Source: Candidatus Sumerlaeota bacterium (lineage in GTDB: Bacteria > Sumerlaeota > Sumerlaeia > JABWBI01). From it: a DNA stretch of 35,133 nucleotides. The notes under the pieces were generated by a model that worked only from the letters and a program-made list of their open reading frames with translations, searched no databases and had not been told where the DNA came from. The DNA is taken from the NCBI GenBank assembly GCA_016928695.1, contig JAFGKF010000038.1, positions 1-35,133 on the forward strand. Reading direction: 5' to 3'. This document shows positions 3,177 through 31,238 of the stretch, one piece after another (the stretch's first letter is position 1; every line of letters starts with the position of its first letter). A program made the translations under genes and the position numbers.

Positions 3177-4058
3177 ATGAGCCAGCCCAGTGATCCCCTT
3201 TCCCCTGAGCAGAGAGCGCTGGTCGAGGAGGTTGTCCGGCGCGTGACGGCCCAGCTCGGCGGAAGCCCCGCTCCGAGCCCCGCCCCCTGCTCTGTCCCCC
3301 CTCCCCCCTCGGCGCCGGCCGAGGCCCAGGCGATGCAGGCGATGGCCGACGGCGGTGCCACGCGCTTCGGGACCAACGGCGAGAGCTCGGAGGCCTGTGT
3401 GATGGTCGCCCCGATGATCGACCACACGCTGCTCAAGCCCAATGCGAAGCCCGAGGACGTCGAGAGGCTCTGCGCCGAGGCGAAGCAGCACCGCTTCGCC
3501 AGCGTGTGCATCAATCCCACCCACGTGCCGCTCTGCCGATCTCTCCTGGCCGGGACCGGCGTCAAGGTCTGCACGGTGATCGGGTTCCCTCTGGGCGCGA
3601 CCTCCACCCAGGCGAAGGCCTTCGAGACGCAGCAGGCGGTGGCCGACGGGGCCGACGAGATCGACATGGTCATCAACGTCGGCCTCCTCAGGGCCGGCGA
3701 GTACCCCGCCGTGCTGCGCGACATCGAGGCCGTCGTGGCCGCCGCCCAGGGGCGGACGGTCAAGGTGATCCTCGAGACGTGCGAGCTCACCGATGACGAG
3801 AAGGTCGCGGGGTGCGTCCTGGCGAAGGCAGCGGGGGCGCACTTCGTCAAGACCTCGACCGGTTTCGCCAAGGGCGGCGCCACGCCCGAGGACATCGCGC
3901 TGATGCGCCGCGTGGTCGGCCCCAGGATGGGCGTCAAGGCCTCGGGCGGCATCCGCGACTGCGCCACGGCCCAGGAGATGATCGCGCGCGGCGCGACGCG
4001 CATCGGCGCGAGCGCCAGCGTGGCCATCGTCCAGGGGGCCGAGGGCCATGGCTATTGA
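3177..4058 (+). CDS. deoC: Deoxyribose-phosphate aldolase with N-terminal BMC encapsulation-peptide-like extension
   Basis: DERA motifs 'IDHTLLKP', '[10 protein letters not shown]', 'HFVKTSTGF' (Schiff-base Lys) and '[10 protein letters not shown]'. N-terminal amphipathic helix '[22 protein letters not shown]' is followed by a Pro/Ala-rich linker. Confidence 0.93.
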
Positions 4059-4099: not shown

Positions 4100-5545
4100 A
4101 TGACTGACGCGACGTCGACCGCACCCGCTGAGGCGCCGGCCAAGAAAAAAGAGCGCATCGAGTCGCTCGATGCCTTCCGCGGATTCACCATCCTCGGGAT
4201 GGTCTTCGTCATCGCCGTGGCGGCGGGGGGCTATCAGAATGAGCCCTATCACGACATGCCCTATGGCGGCCTGCCCCAGCAGATGCGCTGGTTCGGCAGC
4301 CCGCCCGTCTCCACATGGTTCCACGCCGAGGTGGGGTGGGACCTCTGGCACGAGAACTTCCACCGCATGGCGATCGCCGAGCGGGGATACACCGAGGACG
4401 AGTTCAACCACTTGACGCGCGAGGAGCGCGCCGCGATCAGCGCCGAGATCCAGGGGGAGATGGAGGCGCATGAGCACTATCCCCTCCGCCACATCGGCTG
4501 CACGTTCACCGATCTGATCGCCCCCTGGTTCGTCTTCATCGTCGGCGTCTGCATCCCGCTCAGCCGCCGCAAGCGCGGCGCGGCGTTCTGGAAACACGCT
4601 CTCTCGCGCACCCTGATGCTCATCCTCATGGGCATGCTCTACATCTCGTTCGTGCTCCGCGAGCTGGCGCCCTGGTGGGGCGTGCTCCAGGCGATCGGGG
4701 TCGCCTACCTCTGCGGCGTGCTGCTCACACTGCTCCCCAGCGCGGGGCGCTGGATCACGGTCTTCGCCGTCAGCATCGTCTATCTCCTGCTCACCGAGCT
4801 CTGGCCCGCCTGGACGCAGAATCCCCACTGGTTCCCCGAGTGGACCGGCCAGGTGTGGGCGGAGATCGACCGCCCCTTCTGGACGTTCGTCAATCCCACG
4901 GGGAGCGAGAAGCGGCTCCTCGTCATCCACTGCCTGCCGTGGCTCTCGATCTCGTACGGCGTGATGACGATGATCGGCGTCCTGGTGGGTGAGGTGATCC
5001 GCGAGGGCGGCCGCCAGGCGTTCGTGCGGCGCTCGCTGATCGTCAGCGCGATCTTCATCCCCATCGGGTACGGGATTCACCGATACGGCCTCATGACGGA
5101 GGACTGGAGCCTCTGCATGAACAAGCCGGAGGTGACGATCTCCTACGCGCTCTTCACCGCGGGGCTGGGCGCGCTGGTGCTCCTGGGATTCTTCCTGGTG
5201 ATCGACGTGTGGAGGATCAGGTTCTGGTCGAAGCCGCTGCTCGTCTTCGGCATGAACCCGCTGCTGGCCTATTTCATGATGATCCTCATGCGACGCTGGA
5301 TCTTCGACGCCCTCGGCCTGACGGGGATCTTCGACCGCGTCTACCCCCTCCGCGACGACTGGGGCAATCCGCTGGTTCACAATTGGGCCATGTGTCTCGA
5401 GGGCTGGGGAATCGCCCCCGAGAGCGTCGCCGAGTTTTTCCGCAAGAGCGGATACCACGGAATCATGTGGGGCTTGATCTGGACCCTCTGCCTGTGGCTG
5501 ATTGTCCGCTGGTTCAACAGACGCGAGATCTTCTGGAAACTCTGA
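4100..5545 (+). CDS. Multi-pass membrane protein, COG4299 / heparan-alpha-glucosaminide N-acetyltransferase (HGSNAT)-like, DUF5009-type
   Basis: 'RIESLDAFRGFTILGMVFVI' and 'GCTFTDLIAPWFVFIVGVCIPLS' are hallmark segments, followed by many hydrophobic helices. SD 'aggggaga' precedes ATG 4100. Confidence 0.75.
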   Translation: MTDATSTAPAEAPAKKKERIESLDAFRGFTILGMVFVIAVAAGGYQNEPYHDMPYGGLPQQMRWFGSPPVSTWFHAEVGWDLWHENFHRMAIAERGYTEDEFNHLTREERAAISAEIQGEMEAHEHYPLRHIGCTFTDLIAPWFVFIVGVCIPLSRRKRGAAFWKHALSRTLMLILMGMLYISFVLRELAPWWGVLQAIGVAYLCGVLLTLLPSAGRWITVFAVSIVYLLLTELWPAWTQNPHWFPEWTGQVWAEIDRPFWTFVNPTGSEKRLLVIHCLPWLSISYGVMTMIGVLVGEVIREGGRQAFVRRSLIVSAIFIPIGYGIHRYGLMTEDWSLCMNKPEVTISYALFTAGLGALVLLGFFLVIDVWRIRFWSKPLLVFGMNPLLAYFMMILMRRWIFDALGLTGIFDRVYPLRDDWGNPLVHNWAMCLEGWGIAPESVAEFFRKSGYHGIMWGLIWTLCLWLIVRWFNRREIFWKL

Positions 5546-5566
5546 CCGAGACAAGGAGCGCAGACC

Positions 5567-6439
5567 ATGCCGGCCGCCTTTGGATTCGTTGAGACCCGTG
5601 GATTCACGGGCATGATCGAGGCCACCGACGCCATGCTCAAGGAGGCGCGCGTCGACCTCGTGCGCCAGGAGCACATCGGCGGAGGCCACGCCACCGCCAT
5701 CGTCCGCGGCGACGTGGGGGCGGTGCGCGCCTCGGTCGAGGCGGGCGCGACGGCCGCGAAGGCGGTCGGCGAGTTCCACGCCGCCACCGTGATCCCCAAC
5801 CTCAGCGCCATGGCCGAGGTGGTGATCATCGACTGGAAGGGCCCCGGCGAGGAGGTCAAGGTCACCGATTCGATCGGGATGATCGAGATGCATGGGTTCG
5901 CCCCCATGGTGGAGGCGGCCGATGCAGCGGTCAAAGCCGCGCACGTCACTCTGGTCGACTACGTTTCCATCGGCGGGGGGCGCTGCGCCGCGATCGTCCG
6001 CGGCGACGTCGCCGCCTGCCGCACGGCGGTCGATGCGGGTGAGGCCGCGGGCAGCCGCGTGGGGCCGCTCGTCGCCAAGCACGTGATCCCGAGCCCGCAC
6101 GTGCTTCTCCAGGCCAACGGCATGCCGCTCGGCGCCACTGCGAAGAGGGAGAAGTCCAACGGCAAGGCGCTCGGCATCATCGAGACGCTGGGCTTCGTCG
6201 CCTCCGTCGAGGCGCTCGACGCCGCCGTCAAGACCGCCCAGGTCGTCCCCGTGGGCTGGCAGTGCGTCGGATCGGGCCACAGCGCCGTCATTGTCCAGGG
6301 CGACGTCGCCGCCGCGCGCTCGGCGGTCGAGGCCGGGGGAGGGGCCGCCTCGCGGGTCGGCAAGCTCGCCTTCACGCACGTCATCCCCCGCCCCCATGAG
6401 GGCGTCGACCAAGTGCTCCCCCCGGCGAAGAAGCACTGA
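5567..6439 (+). CDS. Triple-domain bacterial microcompartment shell protein (three tandem BMC/Pfam00936-type domains)
   Basis: 290 aa, SD 'aaggag'. Repeats begin 'AFGFVETRGFTGMIEATDAMLKEARV', 'SIGMIEMHGFAPMVEAADAAVKAAHV' and 'ALGIIETLGFVASVEALDAAVKTAQV', followed respectively by 'IGGGHATAIVRGDVGAVRASVEAG', 'IGGGRCAAIVRGDVAACRTAVDAG' and 'VGSGHSAVIVQGDVAAARSAVEAG'. 'HVIPSPH'/'HVIPRPH' ends domains 2 and 3. Confidence 0.93.
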   Translation: MPAAFGFVETRGFTGMIEATDAMLKEARVDLVRQEHIGGGHATAIVRGDVGAVRASVEAGATAAKAVGEFHAATVIPNLSAMAEVVIIDWKGPGEEVKVTDSIGMIEMHGFAPMVEAADAAVKAAHVTLVDYVSIGGGRCAAIVRGDVAACRTAVDAGEAAGSRVGPLVAKHVIPSPHVLLQANGMPLGATAKREKSNGKALGIIETLGFVASVEALDAAVKTAQVVPVGWQCVGSGHSAVIVQGDVAAARSAVEAGGGAASRVGKLAFTHVIPRPHEGVDQVLPPAKKH

Positions 6440-6462
6440 GCCTCCGTGCTGATCCACATTTG

Positions 6463-6492
6463 AAAAGGGCGCTTCCCTGGGCGCCCTTTTTT
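6463..6492 (+). terminator. Rho-independent terminator of the deoC-BMC operon
   Basis: AAAAGGGCGC-ttccctgg-GCGCCCTTTTTT: perfect 10-bp stem and T-tract, 24 nt after the BMC stop codon. Confidence 0.9.
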
Positions 6493-6551
6493 CATGGCCT
6501 CCCGCCTCGCCGATCTGCTCAATGGCATCTCATCTCATCCGGAGGTCAGGA

Positions 6552-9038
6552 ATGAGACTCTCGCACGCCGCTCTCACGATCGCTCTGGGGATGATCGTCC
6601 TCTCGTGCATCACCGAGCCGACTCCCACCACGCGGACCGTCCCTGAGGTTCTGCCCGGGCGCATCGATGACGACACGGTGCTCCTGCCCAACCAGTGGTC
6701 GCTCCGGCCCGCGGGCCAGATGTTCGAGGTGGGCAACTTCCCCGCCAACATGGAGCTCTCGCCCGATGGGAACTGGCTCGCCGTGCTCCACAGCGGGCAG
6801 GGGCAGCACGAGGTCTCGATCGTCGACCTGATGGGCCGGCGCCCCCGCGTCGCCTCGCGCGTGCCCGTGACCAACTTCCAGGGCATCGCCTGGTCGCTCG
6901 ACGGAGAGCGCCTCTTCGTCAGCGGCGGCGAGGACAACGTCGTCCACATCTACTCCCACCGGGGAGGCCTGCTGGGCGATCACCATGAGATCACAGTCGC
7001 GGAGGGCGACGATCCCATGGTGGGCGATGTCGTGGTCACACCGGATGCCGAGACCCTCTTTGTGGCCCTGTGCATCGCCGATCGCGTGCTCGCGGTCGAT
7101 CTGGAGTCCGAGGAGGTCAACGAGATCGCCGCCTGGGAGGGCGACGTCTACCCCCACTCGCTCCTTCTGGAGCCCAACGGCGAGGGGCTGTGGGTCAGCC
7201 TCTGGGCCGAGAGCGCAATCGAGCGGATCGACCTGACCGATCCCGGCGCCGCGCGTGAGCAGGTCGCGGTCGGCAGCCATCCCAATGAGATGGCTCTGAC
7301 CGACGACGGCGCGCGCCTCTTCGTCGCCTGCGCGAACGACAACACCGTGCACGTGGTCGACACCGCATCCCAGCGCGTCACCGAGGTGCTCAACACCGCG
7401 CTCCACCCCAACTCGCCGGAGGGCTCGACTCCCAACAGCCTCGCGATCTCGCCCGACGGCGAGACGCTCTTTGTCGCCAACGCCGACAACAACGACGTCG
7501 CAGTCTTCGACATCGAGGAGCCGGGGCACACCCGCGGCGAGGGCTTCATCCCAGTCGGCTGGTACCCCACGAGCGTTCGTCTGAGCGCGGACGGCGCAAC
7601 TCTCTACGTGGCCAATGGCAAGGGCGACCAGGGCTTCGCCAATCCCCAGGGGCCGAATCCCTACCACCCGTCCCTCACCACAGTGCAGTACATCGCGCGC
7701 CTCCACCCCGGCACCATCACGCATCTCGAGGTCCCCGACGAGGAGGCGCTGCGCTCGCTGACGGAGGATGCGTACGACTGCTCGCCCTATCGCGCGGACC
7801 TGACGCCGGTCGTCGCCCCCGAGGGCCCGAATCCCATTCCCCGGCGCGTGGGCGATCCCTCGCCGATCACCCACGTCATCTACATCGTCAAGGAGAACCG
7901 CACCTACGATCAGGTGCTGGGCGACATGCCCGAGGGCAACGGCGATCCCGCGCTCTGCATCTTCCCGGAGCGCGTCTCGCCCAACCACCACGCCCTCGCG
8001 CGTGAGTTCGTGCTCTACGACAACTTCTATGTCGAGAGCGAGGTCTCCGCCGACGGACACGAGTGGTCGATGGCGGCCTATGCCACCGACTTCGTCGAGC
8101 GCACCTGGCCGATCAACTACGGCGGGCGGGGATTCTTCTATCCCGCGGAGGGTGGCCACGAGATCGCCAGGCCCGACAGCGGATACATCTGGGACCGCTG
8201 CCGCGAGGCCGGGGTCTCGTACCGCTCGTACGGTGAGTTCATCGACAACGGTGAGACACCCGACGACCCGGGCACCGCGACGATGGAGAGTCTGGAGGGG
8301 CACTTCGATCCCCACTACCGCGGCTACGACCTCGAGTATCGCGACGTCGACCGCGCGGCGCGCTTTCTCGAGGAACTCGAGCGCTTCGAGGCCGAGGGCG
8401 AGATGCCGCGCTTCATCGTCCTGCGCCTCCCCAACGACCACACGTCGGGCACGCGGGAGGGTCGGCCCACACCCACGGCCTACGTGGGCGACAACGACCT
8501 GGCGCTGGGGCAGATCATCGAGGCCCTGAGCCACTCCTCCTTCTGGCCAGGCCTCGCCATCTTCGTCGTCGAGGACGATGCCCAGAACGGCCCCGACCAC
8601 GTCGACGCGCACCGGACAGTGGCGCTCGTCGCCAGCCCCTGGGCACGGCGCGGCCTCGTGGACTCGCACATGTACTCGACCGCCTCGATGCTCCGCACGA
8701 TGGAGCTGATCCTCGGCCTCGAGCCCATGAGCCAGTTCGACGCCGGAGCGCGCCCCATGTTCGCCTCCTTCACCATGGAGCCCGACATGACCCCCTACGT
8801 CTGCCGCCCCGCGCAGGTCGATCTCGATGAGGTCAACACCCCCGACGCCTGGGGCGCGGAGATCTCCGCCGGTCTCTACCTCGAGGAGGAGGACTCGACC
8901 GACGATATTCTCCTCAACGAGATCGTCTGGCGCAGCGTGCGCGGCGCCGACTCGCCCATGCCGCCCCCCGTGCGCGCGGCGTTTCTCCGGCCGGTGGATG
9001 ACGATGACGAGGGCGAGCGCGGGAAAGACGAGATCTAG
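6552..9038 (+). CDS. YncE-like beta-propeller lipoprotein with C-terminal phosphoesterase domain
   Basis: SD ggaggt, signal 'LIALGMIVLSC'-type lipobox, repeated 'LAISPDGETLFVANADNNDVAVFDI' blades, then 'ITHVIYIVKENRTYDQVLGDMPEGNGDP...SPNHHALAREFVLYDNFYVESEVSADGHEW' typical of the phosphoesterase family. Confidence 0.85.
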   Translation: MRLSHAALTIALGMIVLSCITEPTPTTRTVPEVLPGRIDDDTVLLPNQWSLRPAGQMFEVGNFPANMELSPDGNWLAVLHSGQGQHEVSIVDLMGRRPRVASRVPVTNFQGIAWSLDGERLFVSGGEDNVVHIYSHRGGLLGDHHEITVAEGDDPMVGDVVVTPDAETLFVALCIADRVLAVDLESEEVNEIAAWEGDVYPHSLLLEPNGEGLWVSLWAESAIERIDLTDPGAAREQVAVGSHPNEMALTDDGARLFVACANDNTVHVVDTASQRVTEVLNTALHPNSPEGSTPNSLAISPDGETLFVANADNNDVAVFDIEEPGHTRGEGFIPVGWYPTSVRLSADGATLYVANGKGDQGFANPQGPNPYHPSLTTVQYIARLHPGTITHLEVPDEEALRSLTEDAYDCSPYRADLTPVVAPEGPNPIPRRVGDPSPITHVIYIVKENRTYDQVLGDMPEGNGDPALCIFPERVSPNHHALAREFVLYDNFYVESEVSADGHEWSMAAYATDFVERTWPINYGGRGFFYPAEGGHEIARPDSGYIWDRCREAGVSYRSYGEFIDNGETPDDPGTATMESLEGHFDPHYRGYDLEYRDVDRAARFLEELERFEAEGEMPRFIVLRLPNDHTSGTREGRPTPTAYVGDNDLALGQIIEALSHSSFWPGLAIFVVEDDAQNGPDHVDAHRTVALVASPWARRGLVDSHMYSTASMLRTMELILGLEPMSQFDAGARPMFASFTMEPDMTPYVCRPAQVDLDEVNTPDAWGAEISAGLYLEEEDSTDDILLNEIVWRSVRGADSPMPPPVRAAFLRPVDDDDEGERGKDEI

Positions 9039-10195
9039 CCGAGCGCTCTGAGCAGCGCCCTTCCAATCGCCTCCGCCAGCAGCGGTGGGACGGCATTGCC
9101 CGTCTGCACGCGGCCCTGAACGGTCCCGCCCTCGATGAAACAGGTGTCGGGGAAGCTCTGGAGGCGGCAACGCTCGCGCACGGTCAGCCCCCGCGGCTGC
9201 GTCGGATGCCCGAACGAGAACTGCGGGCGAATTCCCCCCGAGACCTGCGTCGGGCTCGGGCGATCGGGGTGGAGGCGAATGCGCTGGCGGAACCGCGGGT
9301 ACATCGGCTCGCCGGGGGCCGTGCGCGCGATCCGCTCGACCGTGGCGCGGGGGTGATGTGGCGCGGTGTGATTGGTCAGACTCCGGGAGCCACGTCTCAT
9401 GCATCGCTGGTGATGGCTGAAGGGTTTTTCCGCGTATTCCTCGGCGCTCTGCCCGGGCTCGAGCGGCGGCAGGTCGCCGATGGCCTCCCAGACCGTGACG
9501 AAAGATCGCTGCCCCTCGCCATGGGTGGGCCGAGGCCAGGGGAAGGCGTGACCACTGCGCAGCCCGACGAAGAAGACCCGCCGCCGCTCCTGCGGCACGC
9601 CGAACTCCGCCGCATTGAGCAGTCGCCACTCGACGTGATACCCGCTCTCGGCGATCGCGGCCTCGATCCGCGCGGCAAAGCCGCCCGCGTCGGCCGACCG
9701 CAGCCCCGAGACGTTCTCGAGGATCACAGCGCGGGGTCTCAGGTGCCGCACGACGCGGATGAACTCGTGAAAGAGGAAATTGCGGCGGTCGGCGTCGTGG
9801 CGCTTGCGGTTGCACAGCGAGAAGCCCTGGCACGGCACGCCCGCGGTGACCAGATCCACCGAGCGCCCGTCGAGCGCCTCGTCGATCAGCGCCTCCGGCA
9901 CGCGGCGGATGTCGCCGAGAATCGTCGCGGCGGCCGGATGTGCGCGGGCATACGTCCGCGCCGAGGGAATGTGGTGGTCGAGCCCCAGCGCGGGTGCAAA
10001 GCCCGCCGCGGCGAGCCCCAGCGAGAATCCCCCCGCGCCGCTGAAGAGGTCGACCATCAGCGGTTCATCGCGACGCGGCGCCTCGCGTGGGGAATGGAGC
10101 ACAGGTTCCCCCGTCCAGTTGGTGATGTTCTCCTCGGGGGCGACCCGTGGATCCCACACGTCGAGGGCGGTCTCTCGGCTGGCCATGGCGCTCAT
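9035..10195 (-). CDS. DNA (cytosine-5) methyltransferase
   Basis: 'VDLFSGAGGFSLGLAAAGF' (motif I), 'GVPCQGFS' (motif IV), 'ENVSG' (motif VI), 'QERRRVFFVGLRSG' (motif VIII), C-terminal 'QTGNAVPPLLAEAIG'. Start codon could lie further upstream (10276). Confidence 0.93.
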   Translation of the reverse strand: MSAMASRETALDVWDPRVAPEENITNWTGEPVLHSPREAPRRDEPLMVDLFSGAGGFSLGLAAAGFAPALGLDHHIPSARTYARAHPAAATILGDIRRVPEALIDEALDGRSVDLVTAGVPCQGFSLCNRKRHDADRRNFLFHEFIRVVRHLRPRAVILENVSGLRSADAGGFAARIEAAIAESGYHVEWRLLNAAEFGVPQERRRVFFVGLRSGHAFPWPRPTHGEGQRSFVTVWEAIGDLPPLEPGQSAEEYAEKPFSHHQRCMRRGSRSLTNHTAPHHPRATVERIARTAPGEPMYPRFRQRIRLHPDRPSPTQVSGGIRPQFSFGHPTQPRGLTVRERCRLQSFPDTCFIEGGTVQGRVQTGNAVPPLLAEAIGRALLRALG

Positions 10196-10250
10196 GTCGC
10201 GCCGAGAGTCACTGGTGGCGGCGAGCCCGTCAAGTCCCGTGGTGAGTGGA

Positions 10251-13200
10251 TCACTCTCCCAGCAGCATGAATCCATGGCACTCCACGGTCTGCCAGAGCC
10301 CGGGCTCGCCCAGACCGACGAAGACCCATCTCACCGCATCGGCCAAGACGACGTTCCCCGTCGAGGTCATGTCGTCGATGACGATCCTCGCCTCCGGTCC
10401 CTCAAAGAAACGTGGGCTGCCGAGAGAGTTGAATTGTCCGCCGTTGATCTGCTGATTGACGAGGATCCGCTCCGTGCCCTCGGAGGAGATCACCGTGTAG
10501 GGGGCCTCCGTGGTCCGGTTGGAGCCCTGCGGATACCAGCACTGCGCCTGCCACAGGCCCCTCTGGGGAAGCGTCGCCGACCACTGGGCCTCGGAGGAGG
10601 CGGCGCCGACGGAGGCGAAGCGGTAGTCTGCCCCGTATTTGTCGGAGGAGGAGCTGCCCGTGCTCCAGTCTCCCACGGTGACCTCGAAGCCCGGGTCGGA
10701 GTTGTCGACGATCACCCCACCGATGGTCGCGAGGGTGAACAGCACGGTGTCAGGACCCTGCCCGGTGTTGTCCGCCAGGTCGCGCGAGACAGGGCGCCAG
10801 TGGAGCAGATACGAGGACGGGAGACCACTGACCCGGATCCAGTGACTGGTCGTGTAGGTGGGATCCTCGGGTGTCGTGTGGCCATAGGCTGTTGTCAGCC
10901 CCCAATCCACCTGGGTCGTCGAGAGCTCGTCGGTGACCCAGTGCACGATGGCATCGCGGTCCGAGACGGCGATGACCTCGATGTCGCTGAAGACAGGTGC
11001 GGTGGTGTCCGGGGGCTCGGTGGTGAAGACAAGGTCGACAGAGATCGTCTCATTGCCGAGATAATCCGCCACGCGCAGGCGGGCGTGGTGCTCCGTCTCG
11101 GGATCCAGGCTCGTCAGCGTGATCGTGTCCTCCGCGACATGCGTGGTGGTGGCGGGTGTCGTGCTCCCATAGGCCGCGGTCAGACCCCACTCCACCTCGC
11201 CGGTGGCGGGCTCGTCTGTGACCCAGTGGAGCGTGGCCACCGAGGGGCCAATGTTGATGACCTCGAGGATGAGCAGCGAGGGACCCTCCGTGTCGGGGAC
11301 GGGGGGCGAGAGGAGATAGTCCACCGCCGCCAGCGCCAGCTGGTTTCGCTCGGACTCGGTGACGATGGCCTCGAGAGGCGAGGCGAGAGTCAGGGCCTTG
11401 CCCGGACCACCGGCATAGCCGATTCCTGCGGCGTCGCTCGAGCCCGCCCATGTCAACACAACCTCGCCGCCGAGCCCGGGCGACAGGACGTCGGGCGTCG
11501 TCACGTCGTAGAGGCCGTTGGTGCCGTCGCTGAGGTTGAGGATCAGCCCGGCGAACGGGGTGCCCGCACGCCCGGTCACCTTGCGCACCGACGAGCCGTG
11601 ACTCACGTACCGCATGTGCAGCGTCCCCTCGGCGAAGGCCTCGTCCGCAGCGGAGCCATTGGCGATCAGATCATATCCGACATCAGTGCCGGTCGCGAGC
11701 AGTCGCCCCCCGCCTCCGAGATACGAGGTCAAGAGCGCCTGCTCCGCCGAGGAGAGGGTCTCGTCATCGACGGACTCACGCCCCAGGATCCAGTCGCACA
11801 GCGCATAGTCCCCGAGGAGCACGCCGCCCCCGATCACCGCCTCGTTGGCGCAGGAGTCGATCGGGCGATCGGGCCGCACCGCCGCGAGAGCGCCGATGTG
11901 CTCGAGGACGAAGCGCCGCGGGTTGTTCGGCTCCTGGACTTTTTGGTCCCAGCGGTCGAATCCATTGACGACGAGGAAGGGCTCACCCTCACCGACGTGC
12001 ACGCCCACGACCTCGGTGGGGAAGCTCCGTCCGCCCGCGTTTTCGGCGGCCACACGGAAGAAGAGGATGTCGCCGGCCGAATGCCCGCTCACCACGGTCT
12101 CGGTCACCGGGCCCACATCCTGGCCCAGGTCGAAGGCCATCGCGTCCTGACTGGCGAAGAGGCGATAGGTGTCCGGGGCAGGCCCCCAGCTCGGGGGATT
12201 CCACGAGATGCGGACCTGTCCCCCGCCCAGATTCTCGGCCGCGGGGGCCTCGGGGGGCTCGGGGAGGAAGACGACGGAGTCCCCGGCCACGATCTCCGCG
12301 ATGCTCTCGTAGAAGGCCCGCGCCGCGATCGAACGGAAATCGGGATCAACCAGGTTGAGCAGATCGGGCTCCAGCCGATCGTGGTACGCCAGCTCGGGGA
12401 GCCAGTGGGGAAGATGGTAAGTCGGGTAGAGGAGAACGTCATCGATGCCTCCATCCCTCCATGTCGGATCCCAGCGCTCGCGGATGGTGTTGACGAGATG
12501 ATCGTGCGCGGCCCGCAGTTCCACCTCTTCACTGGGATTCCGGGCAACCATCCACGGAGTCATGGTCCCTGTCTGGGTTCCACTCCCAGTGGCGTCGGCA
12601 TTGGTGTGCAGCTCGAGCTGGAAATCTCCCCCCAGCCACCTGCCCATATTCCACCGGACCTGATAGTCGGCTCCGGTCACATACTCGTCCCAAACCCACT
12701 GCGGTGCTCCATAGGTGAGGGCGTAAGACTTGGCGTATTCCTGCCATCGGGGCAGGCCGCTGACGCCACCGCCCCAGTCCACGTCGCCCATGCCTCCACC
12801 CAGGCGGACGGCGTCGGCCACCACCATGGTTCCGACGTCGTCGGATTCCGTGGTCAGCGTGAGAACCGGCCGGTGATCGCCCGCGGGGAAGACGAACCAG
12901 TCGATCCAAAACCACTGGGAATTGTTGACCGTCTGATTGAGCCGGAGCGAGACGTCGCCCCCCGCCGTGTGGATGATGTAGCGGGCATCGCTCGTGGGAT
13001 TGCCCGTCTGAGGCACCCAGAGGCAGAGCCCATAGCGATCGGTGGCGGGGAAGTCTGCGTACCAGGTCGCCGTCGGGCCGCCTCCGCCGCTCTGAGCCGT
13101 TGCCACCTGGGCGCTGCCCTGCCATGCGCTGGAGTCGATCCACGGTGTCCATGTCCCCGTGCTCTCGAACTCCCCGCTGACAGCCGCGTCATCGATGCGA

Positions 13201-14451: not shown

Positions 14452-17400
14452 TCACTGGGCCCCCAGAGTCAGCCCGAAGGAGAACGTCCCCGACCCCGAG
14501 AGCTCGACCATGTGCGTCAGGGCATGGTTGCGCGGGGAGTTGACCGATCCATCCGTGGCGGCGCCGTTGAGACTGGTGCCGGTGTGCCCCGCGTCGGCAT
14601 AGCCGATCGCCGCACTGCCCCCGCTGGCGTTGGTGAGAGTGAAGACCCCCCCTGCATCCGAGGCGCTCAGATTCGCCTGCCCATTGACGAGCATGTCGAG
14701 CACGTTCGGGCTGAGGCCATTGCGTATATAGAGGGTCGTGATCGCGGGGTCCACGGTGTAGGTCACCTCGAGTGTCGAGGAGCCATCGGCCAGCGTGACG
14801 TCCTTTTGAATCCGTCCATCGCTGGAGGTCAGACGGAAGCCATTGGTGATCGCGGTGACGGTGTGGACGTCGTTGACATACAGATTCGTGTCCGGCCCCG
14901 CGGCCCACCAGTCCTTGAGGCACGAGGTGCGCCCCGCCTCGCCAGAGTCGGCTCCCTCGCGCTCGTCGCTGAAATCGGGATTGGCCAGGGGGCATCCGAT
15001 GACCTGATGGGCGGTGCCCGTGTCGGGGTCCCGCGCAAAGGCGGCGATGAGCCGGCCACCGTCGTTCTCGAGGACGGCGAAGACGCGGCTGTTCGAGAGG
15101 ACAACCTCGGTCTCACCATCGTGGTCCAGATCCGTCTGCTGAGCGTCTGTGGTCTGCCCCGGCGAGGAGACCGCCCACTGCGCGGCGGCCACGGCGATGC
15201 CCACGCGTCGCGCCAGCACGCCGTTGAGCTTCAGTGCCCAGTCGGCGATCTCGTCGTACGTGTTGTCCGGGTTGCCGCTCTCCAGCGGCTCGTCCTCGTC
15301 GTGCCAGGCCGTCTCATAGATCGCGGACGCCCATCCCATCTGCGCGAGCCGGTCGAGATTTCCCGAGCCCAGCCCCGAGAGCGCCGCGCTCAGATCACCA
15401 TAGATGGTCCCGGCGACGCTGACGTGCCCGATCCGGGTGTCGCCCCACGTGCCCAGATCCCGGCGGATGGCGGGATTCCTGTCGTCGAAATCCTCCTCCT
15501 GCCCCGGGGAGCCATAGTACCACGTGTCGTGGTTCCCGTGCGTCGCGTGCATCAGCCAGTCGTAGGTCTGGATCGAGAGCCCCGTGTCCGTGCCGTGGTC
15601 GACGGGCGTCCAGCCGCGCGAGGCGATCTCCTCGAGCGTTGTCATCTCGATCCACTGGTGGTTGGCCAGCCAGCGGACCGTGCGGTTCCAGTTGTCCGGG
15701 TTGTCGTTGCCCGTGCTGAACGAGGTGAACGAGCGCCCCGCGTACGCCTCCCAGTCGTCGAAGGCGAGTACCAGCTGCTCGTCGTCGCTGTCGAGCGCGC
15801 GGTTGATGAAAGCGGTCCGCAGGTCGAAGTTCAGCCCGTCGTCCTGAGGATAGAACTTGTTCCCGTCCGTCTCGTTGTTGATCAGGAAGAGGTTCACGCC
15901 GTTGACGCGGTGGATCCTGTGGCCGTTCGTCTGCGCCTCGCCCAGGCCCCACCACTGCTGGACGTGGCCGTATTGGTCGAGGACCGTGTGGGTGTATCCC
16001 GCCGCCGCGATGTCGGCGAACGTCGAGCCTCGGATCACCCGCTCGGGCACCCACATCACGTGCTGCCCCGGCACGATGGTCTCGCCGTAGATCGCCGCGA
16101 GCATCTCCTCGTTGAGATCGATCGACGTCTGATTCGTCCAGCCCTCGAAGTACGGCATCATGTGCTCGCTGAAGACGCCCGACACCAGCGCCCCCTCCCC
16201 GTTGGCCGCCGAGCCGTCGAGAAACTCCGCGATGCGTGCGTTGAACTCCGGGCCGTCCTGAGGATCCGTGTCCCCGGGGCGATCTGCCCACTGAAGCGAT
16301 GCCGCCAGCGTCGCCGAGACATGGATCGAGGGGGGCGCATGGAAGATCTGGGCGGTGTCCAGCGCGCGGTGATACCCGGTCGGATTGCCGCTCGGCGTCG
16401 TGACGGAGATCGAATAGATCAGATCCTGCAGATTGGCTGAGGTGTTGAGCGACTGGTTGCCGTGCAGGATATAGGCGAAGGGGAGGGGAGTGACCGAGGC
16501 GGTCGAGGGCGTCGCCCCATGGAGAACCCCATCGCCGTACCCGCGGTCGTCATCGACGATCGCGTCGGTCAGGTCGGAGTGATCCGGGATATTTCCCGCG
16601 CCGGTGTGGGTGTGATCGCGCGTTGTGAAGACCTGGAAATTGAGAGGGGAGGAGCCGTCCCACCCCTCGCCGGTCAGCACGCTGCGCGCGATGCCGAACT
16701 CCACCGAGTCGAGATCGGCGCGGAAGCTCGCCCCTCGGAAGAGACTGGGCGAGATCGAGCTGTTCGAGAGAACGGTGAAGCCGCTGTCGTAGATCGTCCA
16801 GGCGTCGGTCTGGTAGAGCGCGACACAAACCTCCCAGAGGGTGTCCGCCTGGCAGTCGGTGTAGTCGGGAAGCCAGACCTGGCCCATGCCGGGCGAGCCG
16901 AGATCGATCGCGACGTAGATGTCGAGTGATCCCTGCTCTGCGTTTTCCGCGAGGTCGCAGAGGTCGACACGGAAAAAGACGCTGTCCCCCGCCGGATCGT
17001 CGCGGTGGTAAAACGCGATGATGTCGCGCGAGCGGTCCTGGCCGTCGCTGAACTCATACACGTCGAAGGGCTCGTCGAGCGCGCGCACGTCATCACTCGT
17101 CCAGTCCTGGAACTGCTCATACCAGTCCTGACCCGCGGTCGTGCCGATCAGGGGGCCGGCGCCGATGGTGATGTCGGGCTGAGACGGCTGCGCGCTGATC
17201 GTCAGCGTGACATCGACGCTCTGCGGCGAGTTGTCCGCATTGCCCGACACGTCGATCCGTGCCCCATACGTGCCCTCAGAGAGCCCGGTCGCGGAGTATT
17301 GCACCGTGATCGTGTCCGCCTCTCCGGTCGAGGAGCCCGAGGGCGGCGAGACGCTCAGCCACGAGGTGCCATCGCCTGTGTCCATCGCCGCGACACTGTA

Positions 17401-20400
17401 GTCCAGCGTCCCTGTCCCCGAGTTGGTGACGGTGAACGAGTCGTTCGAGGGGCTGTTCCCCTCGGTTGCACTGGGCGTGAGAGTGGATGTGCTCAGCGAG
17501 ATCATTGGCTCGTCACCCGCCGCCGGATCGATCGTCAGCGTGACGTCGATCGTCTGCGGCGAGTTGGCCGCATTGCCTGAGACCCGGATCGTCGCCCCGT
17601 GGGTGCCCACGGGCAGTGTGTCAGAGTGGAATCTCACCGTGATGGTGTCCGCTTCGCCCGTGGAGGCGCCGCTGTCCGGTGCCACCGAGAGCCAGCCGGA
17701 GACGGGGTTCTCCATGAGATGCACCATGTCCGCGATGTCGACGACATCGTCACCGTTGGCATTCATACCCGTGCTGTCCGCGGTGAGCCCGAGCAGGTGG
17801 TCGCGGATGTCCGCCCAGACGAGGTCCCCGTCATGAGTGATCGACAAGGTGTAGGTCAGCGTCCCGCCTCCGCTGTTGCTCACCGTGAACTCGGTTTCAG
17901 CTGCGTCCGTGCCCTCGGTGGCGCTGGCCGTGATGCTGGCGGTGCTCAGCGAGATCGCGGGGTCATCGGGGGCCTGCGTGGTCGAGAAGTGCCAGTCGGC
18001 GGTGTCGTTGTTGTCCCAGGTGCCCGATGAGCCGGTGGGCTCGTCGTTGAAGGCGTAATCCAGCTGGGTGGCGTTCGCGGGGACAGTGTAGGGGAACGTC
18101 CAGATGTCGTTGCTCCCCCCGCCCATCGCCTCGTGCTGGACATTGGTCCAGTCGTTGATCCCGTGATGGATGTAGACCTGCGAGGCCCCCTGAAGAGGAC
18201 GACCATTGGCATAATAGGTCACCGTCACCGGCTGCCCCACGACGGATGGATCGGGGGAGACGCCGACAGTCTCCTCGGGCACGTCGGGGACCACGGTGTA
18301 ATTCCAATGATCCCCGTTGTTGTCGTCCTCGGTTCCCAAACCATCCTTGAACTTGAGGTGCATGGTCACCGCCAGGAGAGGCACGGGCACCGTGACCTCC
18401 CACAGAGAGCTCCCGCTGTTGAACACCATCGGATAGTCGGGTGGGCTGGCGTCGAGCGGATCCGGGCTGAACTCGGTGAAGGAGACCTCGGCGATGATCT
18501 GCGCAGCCTCCGCCAGAGGCCCCTGCCCGGGATCGTAGGTGATCAGAACATCCTGGTCGATGACAGGCGGATCCGGATCGACTGTCGGCGTCCCCGTCGG
18601 TGGAGGCGAGACCGACCAGTTCCAATTCGACCCGTTGCGGTCGTCGACGGTCGAGCCCCCATCGTTGAGGGAGACGCTCATCGAAGTCGCCGCCGCATCG
18701 ACGGTGAAGGTCACCTCCCATCGGTTCTCCCCCGAGTTGAAGGTCATCAGCGGATCGGGGGAGACCACGATCGCGCCGCCGTTGAAGGTGACGTGGGCAT
18801 AGACCGAGGTGGCACCGCCGAGAGGACCGTCGCCCACGCTGTAGAGAAGTGTGGCGTCCAGGGTGGCCACCGGGGGATTGGGGATGATCAGCGCTGTGCC
18901 CGTGGGGGAGACAGGCTCCGAGATCGTGAAATGCCAGTCGCTCCCGCCGTTGTTGTCCCACGACCCCGCGTTGTTGTGGAACACGCAGTCGAACGCTGAG
19001 CGGTTTGCGGGCATCGGAATCGTGATCTCCCATTTGCCCTCGCCCGCGTTGAACGTCATCTCGGCGTCGGTGATCGTGCCCGACTCCCAGTTGTCGAAGC
19101 CGCAGTGGATCCAGATCGGCGACTGCCCCTCGATCGGTCCTCCCTCATCCTCGTAGAGAATCGTCCCGTCCTGCCCCTTGGCCAGCGGATTGGGCACCGT
19201 CTGGACACGACCGCCGGGCGTCGAGCCCGAGCCGTCTCCGATCCACACGTGCTGAATCGGAGTGCGGGTCACGTTCCCGCGCGTGTCGACCACCTCAACA
19301 TAATAATCGATCAGGCTCTCGGTGTGGGCGGGGACCGTCGCGGAGAAGTGCTCCGAGATGTGCGCCGGGAGCTCGAAGTAGTCGAGCCCGCCCCAGCTGT
19401 AGGGGTTGTCGGCCGCGAAGGTGTGACCGCTCATCGCGATCGATTGCCAGGCGCCGACCTCTGTGCCGTCGGGCGGTGCGTAGAGCTCGTTGTGGATCGA
19501 ATCGATCGGGTTCACCCCGTCGGCATCGAGGCGATAGAGCAGCGTCGCGCTCTGGATCCCGCTCACGTCGTACGCGAAGGTCCAGACGACGAACGAGCCG
19601 TCGTTGATGAACTGCTGATAACCGTACTGCGCCCCGAACGAGACGGCCCCGGGGTTGTGCGGCTGTCGCTGAGGAATCATCACCGTTGGATTCGTCGTGT
19701 CCTCGCTGGGCAGCATCGACGCGAGGATCGGGTCCACGTGCTCGAACGCCTCGTTGCACCCGACCGTCCCCTTGACCTCCATGTCGAGCGGGTTGCCGTA
19801 GTAGACGTTGCCCGAGTCCATTGAGGCCAAGTGATAGGCCCAGGCCCGCTCGACCGCGGTCGCGCCCGCCCCCGACTCGAGCACGTGGCTGATCCGCGTC
19901 GTGGCCGGGCCACCCGCGAGATCCTCCGCCGTCCGGATCCGATTCTCCGCCGCCGTGAAGATCGCGCACTCCCGCGCCTTGTAGTGCCAGCCATTGATCG
20001 GGTCGATCTGGCCGCTCTCCGTGATCAGGGGGTAGAGCCAGTTGATGAAGATCGGGGAGCCGAAGTCCGAGTCGGCGTTCACCCACCCGCCGTCCTCCAC
20101 GTGCACGATGTCGTCGATGGGCACGGGGTGATCGGCCAGGTACTGATTCACCGTCGACGGAGAGTAGCCCCTGCCGGCGCAGTCGTTCGAGAAGTTTTGC
20201 ACCGCCTCCATGTAGTAGGAGTACCCGCCGCCCCAGGCGTTGTCGCCGTCGTGGGCGAGAACGACGAGCATCGGACGCGCGGGGTTGTTGCCCCCCGCGA
20301 TGCCGTCGAGCGCGTTCGCCCCGATTGAGCCATAGCCATCATCCCACGAGATCGCCTGCGCCGTCGGGACCACGATGATCGAGTCGATCGCCCCCGTCTC

Positions 20401-21264
20401 GGGGTCGACATATTGGGCACGGTGCGGCGTGTACGCGAAGGGGTAGGCATTCGCCGGCGAGCAGCCCCGGTCGATGTGGTCGCGCCAATAGTTCACCCCA
20501 TTGGGATTGATCTGGTCGGCGAGATTCGGCGGGTCGCAGTTGACGCCCCCCGAGCCCAGCACCAGCGGGAAGTCGGGGCAGGCGCGCGAAAGGTGCTCGT
20601 TCGAGATGAACGACCACTCGATGCCCAGGTCCGCCAGGACCGGGATCAGACGCTCGGTGAAACAGGTCTCCGTCGGGAAGAAGCCGCGGGCCGTGCCTGG
20701 CGTGATCCCCCAGATGTCCTCCATCATCTCCTGGTGCAGCCGGATCTGAAGCCACTGCGTGCGCTCGCTGAGGAAGGGCAGCATCGCGTGGTGGTGCGCG
20801 AAGTTGACGATGTCCGCGCGGGAATGGCCCCCCGAGGTGGTCCACCCCCTCGCCTCGTTGATCGAGGCGCTCCAAGAGCCCGAGTAGCCCAGCTGGCCCG
20901 CCAGCCCGAGACTCCGCACGTTCTCCATCAGTGCGCCGGAGTAATTGATCTGCGCCCCGGCGTCGCTCAGATGCCTGATGGTGTTGATCGAGTCGCGCGT
21001 CCGCCACTGATAGGCCGCCACGCGATCATCCTTCCCAAAGATCTCACGGAGGTTGTTCTCAGGATGGGCCGCGCCCCCGTCCGTCTGCTGGATCGACCCC
21101 CAGGCCACCTCGTAGCGGTCCGCCCCCCCATTGCGATCCTGATCCGGCCAGTAGATGGGCTGATGCAGGTGCCAGAGGTAAGTCGTGTGGATTGAATCAC
21201 TGGCGTGTAGCTGGGGGATGAGGAGGGCCCAGAGAAGCCCCAGAGTCGCGACGCGTCGGCTCAT
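14452..21264 (-). CDS. Giant secreted multidomain glycoside hydrolase with two GH57-like modules, four starch-binding-like repeats, two BACON-like domains and a dockerin-like insert
   Basis: Signal peptide 'MSRRVATLGLLWALLIPQLHA', then 'HTTYLWHLHQPIYWPD' (GH57 start) and 'GFFPTETCFTERLIPVLADLGIEWSFISNEH'. C-terminal GH57-like module with 'PYFEGWTNQTSIDLNEEMLAAIYG...MWVPERVIRGSTFADIAAAGYTHTVLD' and 'AFDDWEAYAG'. Confidence 0.8.
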   Translation of the reverse strand: MSRRVATLGLLWALLIPQLHASDSIHTTYLWHLHQPIYWPDQDRNGGADRYEVAWGSIQQTDGGAAHPENNLREIFGKDDRVAAYQWRTRDSINTIRHLSDAGAQINYSGALMENVRSLGLAGQLGYSGSWSASINEARGWTTSGGHSRADIVNFAHHHAMLPFLSERTQWLQIRLHQEMMEDIWGITPGTARGFFPTETCFTERLIPVLADLGIEWSFISNEHLSRACPDFPLVLGSGGVNCDPPNLADQINPNGVNYWRDHIDRGCSPANAYPFAYTPHRAQYVDPETGAIDSIIVVPTAQAISWDDGYGSIGANALDGIAGGNNPARPMLVVLAHDGDNAWGGGYSYYMEAVQNFSNDCAGRGYSPSTVNQYLADHPVPIDDIVHVEDGGWVNADSDFGSPIFINWLYPLITESGQIDPINGWHYKARECAIFTAAENRIRTAEDLAGGPATTRISHVLESGAGATAVERAWAYHLASMDSGNVYYGNPLDMEVKGTVGCNEAFEHVDPILASMLPSEDTTNPTVMIPQRQPHNPGAVSFGAQYGYQQFINDGSFVVWTFAYDVSGIQSATLLYRLDADGVNPIDSIHNELYAPPDGTEVGAWQSIAMSGHTFAADNPYSWGGLDYFELPAHISEHFSATVPAHTESLIDYYVEVVDTRGNVTRTPIQHVWIGDGSGSTPGGRVQTVPNPLAKGQDGTILYEDEGGPIEGQSPIWIHCGFDNWESGTITDAEMTFNAGEGKWEITIPMPANRSAFDCVFHNNAGSWDNNGGSDWHFTISEPVSPTGTALIIPNPPVATLDATLLYSVGDGPLGGATSVYAHVTFNGGAIVVSPDPLMTFNSGENRWEVTFTVDAAATSMSVSLNDGGSTVDDRNGSNWNWSVSPPPTGTPTVDPDPPVIDQDVLITYDPGQGPLAEAAQIIAEVSFTEFSPDPLDASPPDYPMVFNSGSSLWEVTVPVPLLAVTMHLKFKDGLGTEDDNNGDHWNYTVVPDVPEETVGVSPDPSVVGQPVTVTYYANGRPLQGASQVYIHHGINDWTNVQHEAMGGGSNDIWTFPYTVPANATQLDYAFNDEPTGSSGTWDNNDTADWHFSTTQAPDDPAISLSTASITASATEGTDAAETEFTVSNSGGGTLTYTLSITHDGDLVWADIRDHLLGLTADSTGMNANGDDVVDIADMVHLMENPVSGWLSVAPDSGASTGEADTITVRFHSDTLPVGTHGATIRVSGNAANSPQTIDVTLTIDPAAGDEPMISLSTSTLTPSATEGNSPSNDSFTVTNSGTGTLDYSVAAMDTGDGTSWLSVSPPSGSSTGEADTITVQYSATGLSEGTYGARIDVSGNADNSPQSVDVTLTISAQPSQPDITIGAGPLIGTTAGQDWYEQFQDWTSDDVRALDEPFDVYEFSDGQDRSRDIIAFYHRDDPAGDSVFFRVDLCDLAENAEQGSLDIYVAIDLGSPGMGQVWLPDYTDCQADTLWEVCVALYQTDAWTIYDSGFTVLSNSSISPSLFRGASFRADLDSVEFGIARSVLTGEGWDGSSPLNFQVFTTRDHTHTGAGNIPDHSDLTDAIVDDDRGYGDGVLHGATPSTASVTPLPFAYILHGNQSLNTSANLQDLIYSISVTTPSGNPTGYHRALDTAQIFHAPPSIHVSATLAASLQWADRPGDTDPQDGPEFNARIAEFLDGSAANGEGALVSGVFSEHMMPYFEGWTNQTSIDLNEEMLAAIYGETIVPGQHVMWVPERVIRGSTFADIAAAGYTHTVLDQYGHVQQWWGLGEAQTNGHRIHRVNGVNLFLINNETDGNKFYPQDDGLNFDLRTAFINRALDSDDEQLVLAFDDWEAYAGRSFTSFSTGNDNPDNWNRTVRWLANHQWIEMTTLEEIASRGWTPVDHGTDTGLSIQTYDWLMHATHGNHDTWYYGSPGQEEDFDDRNPAIRRDLGTWGDTRIGHVSVAGTIYGDLSAALSGLGSGNLDRLAQMGWASAIYETAWHDEDEPLESGNPDNTYDEIADWALKLNGVLARRVGIAVAAAQWAVSSPGQTTDAQQTDLDHDGETEVVLSNSRVFAVLENDGGRLIAAFARDPDTGTAHQVIGCPLANPDFSDEREGADSGEAGRTSCLKDWWAAGPDTNLYVNDVHTVTAITNGFRLTSSDGRIQKDVTLADGSSTLEVTYTVDPAITTLYIRNGLSPNVLDMLVNGQANLSASDAGGVFTLTNASGGSAAIGYADAGHTGTSLNGAATDGSVNSPRNHALTHMVELSGSGTFSFGLTLGAQ
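17985..19220 (-). repeat. Four tandem starch-binding-like modules (CBM25/26-type candidates) inside the giant GH57 protein
   Basis: Repeating pattern such as 'VSPDPSVVGQPVTVTYYANGRPLQGASQVYIHHGINDW...WTFPYTVPANATQLDYAFND...WDNNDTADWHF', seen four times. Boundaries approximate. Confidence 0.6.
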
Positions 21265-21479
21265 GGATAACGCACACCTCGGAAGCTGAAACCAGGCAGG
21301 GGATTCTGCCTGCAGGGGGATCGAAACCCCGTTATTTATATCGGTCCAAATGCCCATGGTCAAGCTGGGTTTTATCGTCCCTTGGGGGAAGTGCTGCCCC
21401 TCTGTGAGATTTCTTTTCCTTGGCCGAGCCCGGCGGCTGTGCTTAGCCTCTGGGCCACTCTCAGACGCCCGAGGATCTC

Positions 21480-28516: not shown

Positions 28517-29725
28517 TCAGCGCCCGTCGCGCGGCGTGCCCTCGCGCAGTGCGCGCACCAGCAGAGGGAGCTTGGCGATGAGATGATCGACGGCCGCGTC
28601 CGTGTTCTCGCGGCCCAGGCTGATGCGGATGCCTCCGCTCACGCGCCCCATCGGGAGACCCATCGCGGTGAGCACATGGCTCGGCGCCAGACCGCCCGCC
28701 GAGCAGGCGGAGCCCGCGGCGATGGAGATCCCCTCCTCGCCCGCGAGGGAGACGAGCCTCGCCCCCTCGATCCCCTCGATGGTCAGGCACAGGATCGTGG
28801 CGAGGCGATGGGCGGGATCACCGCAGAGCTGAACGCCGTTGATCGATCTCTGCAGCCGCTCGATGATCCAATCCCCCAGAGCCCGCAGCCGGGGCATCTC
28901 CGCGGGGCGAAGGGCCTCGGCGAGCTCGAGCGCCGCCCCCAGCCCTGCGATGGCGGGCACGTTCTCCGTCCCCGCGCGAAGCCCCCCCTCCTGATTGCCC
29001 CCGTGGATGATCGGCTGAATCTCCACACCCCGTCGGACGTACAGCGCGGCACCGCCCTTCGGCCCATGGATCTTGTGGCCCGAGAGCGAGAGCAGATCGA
29101 CGCCCAGCGTCTCGACGTCGATCGGCTCCTTGCCGACCGACTGCACTGCGTCGCAGTGAAAGACCACCCCCCGCTCGCGCGCCACGCGGGCGATCTCGGC
29201 GATGGGGTGGATCACGCCCGTCTCGCTGTTCGCGAACATCACCGTGATCAGCACCGTGTCGTCGCGGATGGCGCGGGCGACGTCGTCCGGATCGATGACG
29301 CCCGATTCCCCCACATCGATGAGAGTCACCTCCGCGCCGAAGTCCGAGAGCGCCTCGAGCGTGTTCAGCACCGCGCTGTGCTCGGTGGTGCACGAGATCA
29401 CGTGCATGCCCCGATGCCTGCGGGCCAGAAAGGTCCCCTTGATCGCCAGGTTGTCGCTCTCCGAGCCGCTCGCGGTGAAGATGATTTCCCCCTCGCGCGC
29501 GCCGATCGCGCGGGCGACCCGCCGCCGCGCCTTCTCCACGGCGTAACGCGCATCGATGCCCTGCGAGTAAATGGCCGACGGATTCCCGAAGCGGTCCGAG
29601 AGAAAGGGCATCATCACGCCCAGTGCCTCGGGGGCAAGGGGCGTTGTCGCCGCGTTGTCGAAGTACAGCGCGTGGGGCGTCAGGCCGGGGGGAAGGTCAG
29701 TGTGCTTGGCGAACGACATGATCAC
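28517..29725 (-). CDS. Cysteine desulfurase (NifS/IscS family)
   Basis: 'YFDNAATTPLAPEAL', 'HCDAVQSVGKEPIDVETLGVDLLSLSGHKIHGPKG' (PLP Lys), 'GSACSAGGLAPSHVL' (catalytic Cys loop). Confidence 0.93.
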   Translation of the reverse strand: MIMSFAKHTDLPPGLTPHALYFDNAATTPLAPEALGVMMPFLSDRFGNPSAIYSQGIDARYAVEKARRRVARAIGAREGEIIFTASGSESDNLAIKGTFLARRHRGMHVISCTTEHSAVLNTLEALSDFGAEVTLIDVGESGVIDPDDVARAIRDDTVLITVMFANSETGVIHPIAEIARVARERGVVFHCDAVQSVGKEPIDVETLGVDLLSLSGHKIHGPKGGAALYVRRGVEIQPIIHGGNQEGGLRAGTENVPAIAGLGAALELAEALRPAEMPRLRALGDWIIERLQRSINGVQLCGDPAHRLATILCLTIEGIEGARLVSLAGEEGISIAAGSACSAGGLAPSHVLTAMGLPMGRVSGGIRISLGRENTDAAVDHLIAKLPLLVRALREGTPRDGR

Positions 29726-30074: not shown

Positions 30075-31238
30075 TCAGAGCGATCCACGGACCCTTTGAA
30101 TCAGAGGCGGGAGCGCATTGATGAGATGATCGACCGACGCCTCACTCGTCCAGTGACCGAGGCTCAGGCGCACCGCGCCATCGACATCCACCTGGGGCAG
30201 CCCCATCGCCTCCAGAACGTGGCTGCTCGCCGTGCCCCCCGTGCGACAGGCCGACCCCGCTGCGATGCAGATGCCCTCCTCGGCCGCCAGCGCCACGAGC
30301 CTCGGCCCGCTGATGCCCCGGATGCCAAGATTGAGCGTGCCCGCGAGACTGCGCTCGAGGTCCCCGTTGACGTCGATCCCATCCAGCGCCGACTGCAGCC
30401 CCTCGGCCAGACGTCGCTTCAGCCCGCGCAGCCGCGCCATCTCCTCCTCCCGCCGGGCATCGACGACCTCGATCGCGCGACCGAGTCCGACGATCCCCGC
30501 CACGTTCTCCGTCCCCGCGCGGAGGCCACGCTCGTGGCTGCCACCGTGGATGAACGACTCCAGCCGCGTCCCTTCGCGGACGTAGAGCGCCCCGACGCCC
30601 TTCGGCGCATAGATCTTGTGGCCCGAGAGCGAGAGCAGATCGACACCCAGCGCGTTGACGTCGATCGCCTCCTTGCCCACCCCCTGGATCGCGTCGCAGT
30701 GGAACAGGATGCCGCGCTCGCGGGCGATCCGGCCGACCTCCTCGATGGGGTGGAGCACCCCGGTCTCGTTGTTGGCGAACATGAGCGAGATCAGCACCGT
30801 GTCCTCACGGATCGAGGCGATCAGCTCGTCGAGGTCGATTGCCCCCGACCTCTGGGGCCGGAGCATCGTCAACTCGTCGTCGAAGTATCGCTCCAGCCAA
30901 TGCAGCGGCTCCATCACGGCGCGGTGCTCGGTCATGCACGAGATCAGGTGGCGGCCCCGCTCGCGGTTGGCCAGCGCGGCGCCCTTGATCGCCAGGTTGT
31001 TGCTCTCCGAGCCCCCGCCGGTGAAGACGATCTCCTCGGGCTTCGCCCCCAGCGCCCTGGCCACTCGCCCGCGCGCCCTCTCGATGCCGTACCGCGCTTT
31101 GACGCCGAACGCGTAGATGGTCGAGGCATTGCCGAACTCCTCGGTGAGAAACGGCATCATCTCCTCGATCGCCTCGGGCGCGATCGGCGTCGTCGCGTTG
31201 TAATCGAAGAAGAGCTCGCGTGGGGTGAGGGCAGTCAT
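30075..31238 (-). CDS. Cysteine desulfurase (NifS/IscS family), second paralog
   Basis: 'FFDYNATTPIAPEAIEEMMPFLTEEFGNASTIYAFG', 'LLSLSGHKIYAPKGVGALYVREG', 'GSACRTGGTASSHVLEAMGLP'. Confidence 0.93.
   Translation of the reverse strand: MTALTPRELFFDYNATTPIAPEAIEEMMPFLTEEFGNASTIYAFGVKARYGIERARGRVARALGAKPEEIVFTGGGSESNNLAIKGAALANRERGRHLISCMTEHRAVMEPLHWLERYFDDELTMLRPQRSGAIDLDELIASIREDTVLISLMFANNETGVLHPIEEVGRIARERGILFHCDAIQGVGKEAIDVNALGVDLLSLSGHKIYAPKGVGALYVREGTRLESFIHGGSHERGLRAGTENVAGIVGLGRAIEVVDARREEEMARLRGLKRRLAEGLQSALDGIDVNGDLERSLAGTLNLGIRGISGPRLVALAAEEGICIAAGSACRTGGTASSHVLEAMGLPQVDVDGAVRLSLGHWTSEASVDHLINALPPLIQRVRGSL

Follow-up and report, generated by a model that had tools for sequence, protein, structure and literature searches.

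The window, the whole stretch of 35,133 nucleotides analysed here, is the entire contig C311 of a draft genome of a Candidatus Sumerlaeota bacterium (4.17 Mb, 393 contigs). Three consecutive genes on its forward strand end with one encoding a protein with three bacterial microcompartment (BMC) shell domains, referred to below as the triple. The features of this region are as follows.

3177–4058, forward strand: deoC, deoxyribose-phosphate aldolase (NCBIfam TIGR00126, 287 bits; Pfam DeoC), with a 19-aa encapsulation-peptide-like N-terminal helix; probable cargo
4100–5545, forward strand: membrane acyltransferase-like gene (HGSNAT_cat/NagX-like), between deoC and the triple gene, separated from them by 41 and 21 bases respectively
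5553–5558, forward strand: Shine–Dalgarno sequence AAGGAG, 8 bases upstream of the ATG (5567)
5567–6439, forward strand: triple-BMC-domain shell protein, 290 aa, one open frame with three PF00936 matches; orthologues in genomes G001, G007, G028, G032 and G035
5576–5800, forward strand: BMC domain 1 (d1), BMC-H type, VIPNL end signature; PF00936 88.5 bits, model positions 1–74 of 75
5801–5869, forward strand: linker 1, ∼20 aa; low-confidence segment 92–100 in the AlphaFold model
5870–6097, forward strand: BMC domain 2 (d2), BMC-H type, VIPSPH; PF00936 95.4 bits, model positions 1–75
6098–6166, forward strand: linker 2, ∼20 aa, disordered; low-confidence segment 177–198 in the AlphaFold model
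6167–6394, forward strand: BMC domain 3 (d3), BMC-H type, VIPRPH; PF00936 79.1 bits, model positions 1–75
6462–6491, forward strand: intrinsic terminator, a 13-pair stem and T run directly after the triple gene, closing the putative operon

Shine–Dalgarno sequences were present in the run of deoC, acyltransferase and triple genes, and the terminator region (6445–6500) was predicted to fold with −20.9 kcal/mol (z −2.5). The three genes were considered a putative operon with the triple gene last, and the same gene order was repeated in G001. No Rfam families or tRNAs were detected in the window. DeoC cleaves deoxyribose-5-phosphate into acetaldehyde and glyceraldehyde-3-phosphate. The DeoC of the window bears an amphipathic N-terminal extension of the encapsulation-peptide kind, and a similar extension was found on the DeoC of related genomes, in those with a readable start. 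We infer that DeoC is probably microcompartment cargo; its production of acetaldehyde is the aldehyde chemistry ascribed to SPU metabolosomes (PMC4207490).

Translation of the triple gene gave 290 aa with the sole stop at its end, and the GC content by codon position was 0.73/0.50/0.92. An earlier reading, made from the sequence alone, had proposed that a single polypeptide carries three tandem BMC domains. Comparison of the whole protein with Pfam PF00936 (cut-off 24.5 bits) yielded 239 bits over three separate stretches, the three full matches expected rather than one or two segments, and the EutM model gave 237 bits. In a profile search of the genome d1, d2 and d3 were matched singly, within one stop-free open frame of 297 aa. 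The canonical, non-permuted order that had been proposed was borne out by two AlphaFold models, in which every domain runs strand-helix-strand-strand-helix-strand, and the end signatures described were all found (VIPNL in d1, VIPSPH in d2 and VIPRPH in d3).

Forty genomes of the phylum were searched for PF00936 proteins. Single-frame triples were found in the window's genome (G000), G007, G028, G032 and G035, while in G001 the gene is split over two contig ends, which share an overlap of 12 bases and remain in register. The search for homologues with three PF00936 domains thus gave five other genomes, and the architecture is present in six genomes, which belong to three families within a single class. 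Triples from different families were ∼50% identical to the protein of the window, and the G028 and G035 triples differed with a dS of 0.67 and a dN of 0.02. On these comparisons the triple is under purifying selection and is a conserved family within one class, not a one-off. The three domains are 46–55% identical to each other and 53–58% identical to the single-domain BMC-H encoded in the window's genome, which excludes a recent or assembly-made duplication. The source genome is a fragmented draft, but that the triple should be an assembly artefact or recent tandem duplication, which the sequence-only reading had already thought unlikely, can be dismissed almost with certainty, given this divergence and the recurrence of the architecture in five further genomes, including G007, which is assembled in 10 contigs.

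Outside this phylum ∼1,190 genomes of four phyla were searched. No triples were found in 64 genomes of the phylum to which the Latescibacterota locus belongs, nor in 392 Planctomycetota, 396 Acidobacteriota and 341 Elusimicrobiota genomes; in these larger sets only ∼6 candidates per genome were scored, which is not proof of absence, and the search of the Elusimicrobiota lacked a positive control. Strong-looking matches in these phyla proved to be neighbouring BMC-H genes kept apart by a stop codon, or a two-domain protein. Among the matches listed, plasmid records held ordinary EutM/Pdu genes only. In genomes of the Latescibacterota phylum and in G009, two BMC-H genes follow each other head to tail in one reading frame, with one stop and a short spacer intervening; such same-frame pairs (L096:1498-2073 and L078:9381-10034) look like an unfused state. 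Three BMC-H genes in a row were found in planctomycetes. The acidobacterial genome G583 (L102:1501-2091) encodes a natural two-domain BMC-H-like protein that groups with BMC-H and not with BMC-T. It resembles d1-d2 (191 bits over positions 1–181 of the triple profile, with VIPN in its first domain) but has two domains only; it may be analogous to an intermediate on the way to the triple. A broken BMC-H gene with its pieces in two frames was seen in G008 (L093:4111-4367), suggesting decay or sequence error, and a highly diverged two-domain BMC protein (∼46 bits per domain) was the only PF00936 protein found in G011 (L015:5755-6759).

In a tree of the individual domains every triple domain lay on the BMC-H side of the split from BMC-T (SH-aLRT 98). 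By this placement all three domains are of the BMC-H type and not the BMC-T type, and an origin by fusion of a BMC-T with a BMC-H was ruled out. The d1 copies formed one branch (SH-aLRT 92); the d2 copies and the d3 copies were each compatible with one branch, without resolution. A single clade of all triple domains gave an AU p of 0.61 on 79 columns, and on these columns neither internal duplication nor fusion of three different BMC-H genes was rejected.

The edge lysine equivalent to PduA K26 is retained in all domain copies. The position of PduA R79 is invariably N in d1, S in d2 (in the five copies reaching it) and R in d3, so that the residues at and after this position read N-L/M, S-P-H and R-P-H respectively. 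The edge motif (P/A)RPH is described as an inter-hexamer contact (PMC8217296); its RPH is kept in d3 only, d2 having SPH and d1 NL. At the pore position K37 the orthologues have D/H/Q in d1, W/S in d2 and K/C in d3, the protein of the window having H, S and C and the triples of family f13 (G028, G032 and G035) D, W and K. These position-dependent residues at the R79 and K37 equivalents suggest that position-specific roles are maintained.

The classes described in the part of the shell-protein literature consulted are BMC-H with one domain, BMC-T with two and BMC-P with a different fold (PMC8217296), in keeping with the earlier statement that a three-domain chain is no standard class. No published three-BMC-domain protein was found in the literature searched, which covered few subscription journals, and no PDB chain with three BMC domains was present among the matches listed. 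The three-domain chain lies outside the described shell-protein classes. With BMC-H proteins (EutM, PduA, HO-5815) it shares non-permuted domains of BMC-H-type sequence and the edge lysine, but it has more than one domain per chain and its hexamer positions become three kinds, with pore loops and edge motifs that differ by position. With BMC-T(s) proteins such as PduT it shares the fusion of domains towards a pseudohexagonal tile, its predicted packing matching 3nwg and PduT, but the chain has three domains rather than two, the domains fall outside the BMC-T group, and the tile would be a dimer and not a trimer.

Single-chain AlphaFold models were obtained for the protein of the window (pLDDT 75, pTM 0.63, five sequences) and for the G028 orthologue (pLDDT 84.5, pTM 0.83, seven sequences). 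The latter pTM, reached despite a partly disordered linker, suggests that the relative placement of the domains is predicted with confidence. The length of linker 2 differs between orthologues. With Foldseek, two domains (the pair was not specified) were superposed on the natural BMC-T subunit 3nwg with a TM of 0.86 of the target and 2.4 Å over 184 columns, and this superposition suggests that adjacent domains are packed next to each other, the way they are within a tile. Among PDB chains the strongest match by sequence was 6ner (E 1.6e-51), which like the triple has tandem BMC-H domains in one chain but is a man-made fusion of two domains, in an arrangement unlike that of the model; its whole chain did not superpose on the model (Foldseek TM ∼0.45, rmsd ∼17 Å). 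This mismatch indicates that fused BMC-H domains need not share one tile side by side. The 6ner assembly comprises 30 two-domain chains, or 60 domains, and the engineered fusion remains able to build shells, to judge from the title of its paper (Sutter et al. 2019, as cited in PMC11346464).

Other shell genes of the window's genome were located on the following contigs.

Contig C202: BMC-H, one gene
Contig C386: BMC-T, one two-domain gene, adjoining an RnfC/PduS-like protein
Contig C151: BMC-P, three adjacent genes

Directly after the BMC-H gene lies a flavoprotein gene (PF02441, L016:9721-10503) with an encapsulation-peptide-like N-terminus, a possible cargo. In the 2021 catalogue (PMC8217296) the FRAG type is characterized by a BMC-P triplet and by shell genes spread over as many as six loci. 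The window's genome has dispersed shell genes, at distances unreadable from a contig-level draft, and a BMC-P triplet, and by gene content its shell set resembles a dispersed (FRAG) sugar-phosphate-type metabolosome. The likeness to FRAG/SPU systems extends to scattered shell genes, the BMC-P triplet and DeoC with an encapsulation-peptide-like extension, but a triple-domain protein receives no mention in the accessed parts of the two sources (PMC8217296, PMC4207490).

In the three f13 genomes (completeness 91% for G028, 88% for G032 and 75% for G035) the triple was the only PF00936 protein found, together with three BMC-P each. A search of these genomes for a PduB-like permuted BMC-T gave nothing above background besides the triple, and the idea of a hidden protein of this kind was rejected. 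Chance loss of the same additional shell genes from all three genomes is unlikely, and from this inventory the triple is probably the only facet protein of f13; if f13 makes microcompartments, their facets must come from the triple.

Since a hexagonal shell tile consists of six BMC domains, two chains of three domains each would be enough to fill it. The explanation that best accounts for the data as a whole, to which we give a probability of about 0.6, is that three BMC-H-type domains fused head to tail would constitute a microcompartment facet protein, two copies of which would pair into a two-fold symmetric, pseudohexagonal tile of six domains (d1-d2-d3-d1'-d2'-d3'). The tile would have three kinds of edge, and its central pore would be surrounded by two copies each of three loops that differ in chemistry. 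It would be a facet component of a metabolosome encoded at dispersed loci and probably enclosing DeoC, the vertices of which would be formed by the three BMC-P proteins; in the window's genome the triple would work beside one BMC-H and one BMC-T, and in f13 it would probably be the sole facet protein. We infer dimerization, pore symmetry and shell incorporation from knowledge of the family and from the model. The two-fold dimer is made more probable by the AlphaFold models and by the genomes with the triple as sole PF00936 protein. Points against it are the lower AlphaFold scores for the protein of the window, the failure of the 6ner chain to superpose as a whole and the restriction of the (P/A)RPH edge motif to d3. 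The broader proposition, that the three-domain dimer with its two-fold, mixed-pore tile represents a further natural hexagonal shell architecture and that the facets of one family are made of this tile alone with pentamers, is advanced tentatively, at slightly under even odds.

The ∼20 aa linkers, partly disordered, would also permit the domains of one chain to enter different adjoining tiles (hexamers or pentamers) and so to link them flexibly. The failure of 6ner to superpose on the predicted side-by-side arrangement is in line with this, and its 30 pairs of domains would fit chains bridging units. This arrangement nevertheless appears unlikely, as at least two of the domains are positioned in the AlphaFold models like those of a natural BMC-T, with a high pTM for G028, and natural BMC-T proteins with two domains assemble into single tiles (PMC8217296, PMC8007038). 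Somewhat less probable again is a hetero-hexamer of one triple and three BMC-H monomers; the domains are of BMC-H type and both the window's genome and G007 carry BMC-H genes, yet the triple is conserved in f13, in which no BMC-H partner was found. Stacking into double discs is described for some BMC-T proteins (PMC8217296), and the pore residues of the triple are unlike those of facet BMC-H, which could speak for a specialised role outside the facets, for example as a cargo scaffold or a minor port, or for a larger oligomer, for instance a stack of two dimeric discs. Such a role is improbable, more so than either arrangement above, because it would leave f13, where no other facet protein was found, without a facet, and because the edge lysines are retained in all domains.

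Known facet tiles are six-fold (BMC-H) or three-fold pseudohexagonal (BMC-T). As a two-fold dimer tile, the three-domain chain would complete a series of one, two and three domains per chain, corresponding to hexamer, trimer and dimer, and would allow each pore position and tile edge to evolve separately, which bears on how shell pores gain selectivity. It would be a natural scaffold for shell engineering with a fixed pore make-up, and one facet protein with BMC-P would amount to a testable minimal shell.

Elsewhere in the window, on the reverse strand, two nearby class V aminotransferase (NifS-like) paralogues were identified at 28517–29725 and 30075–31238, together with a C5 cytosine DNA methylase (9035–10276) and an N6/N4 DNA methylase (31391–32242). 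The same strand carries an ORF of 2303 aa (14452–21363), which reads like a secreted multi-domain glycoside hydrolase.
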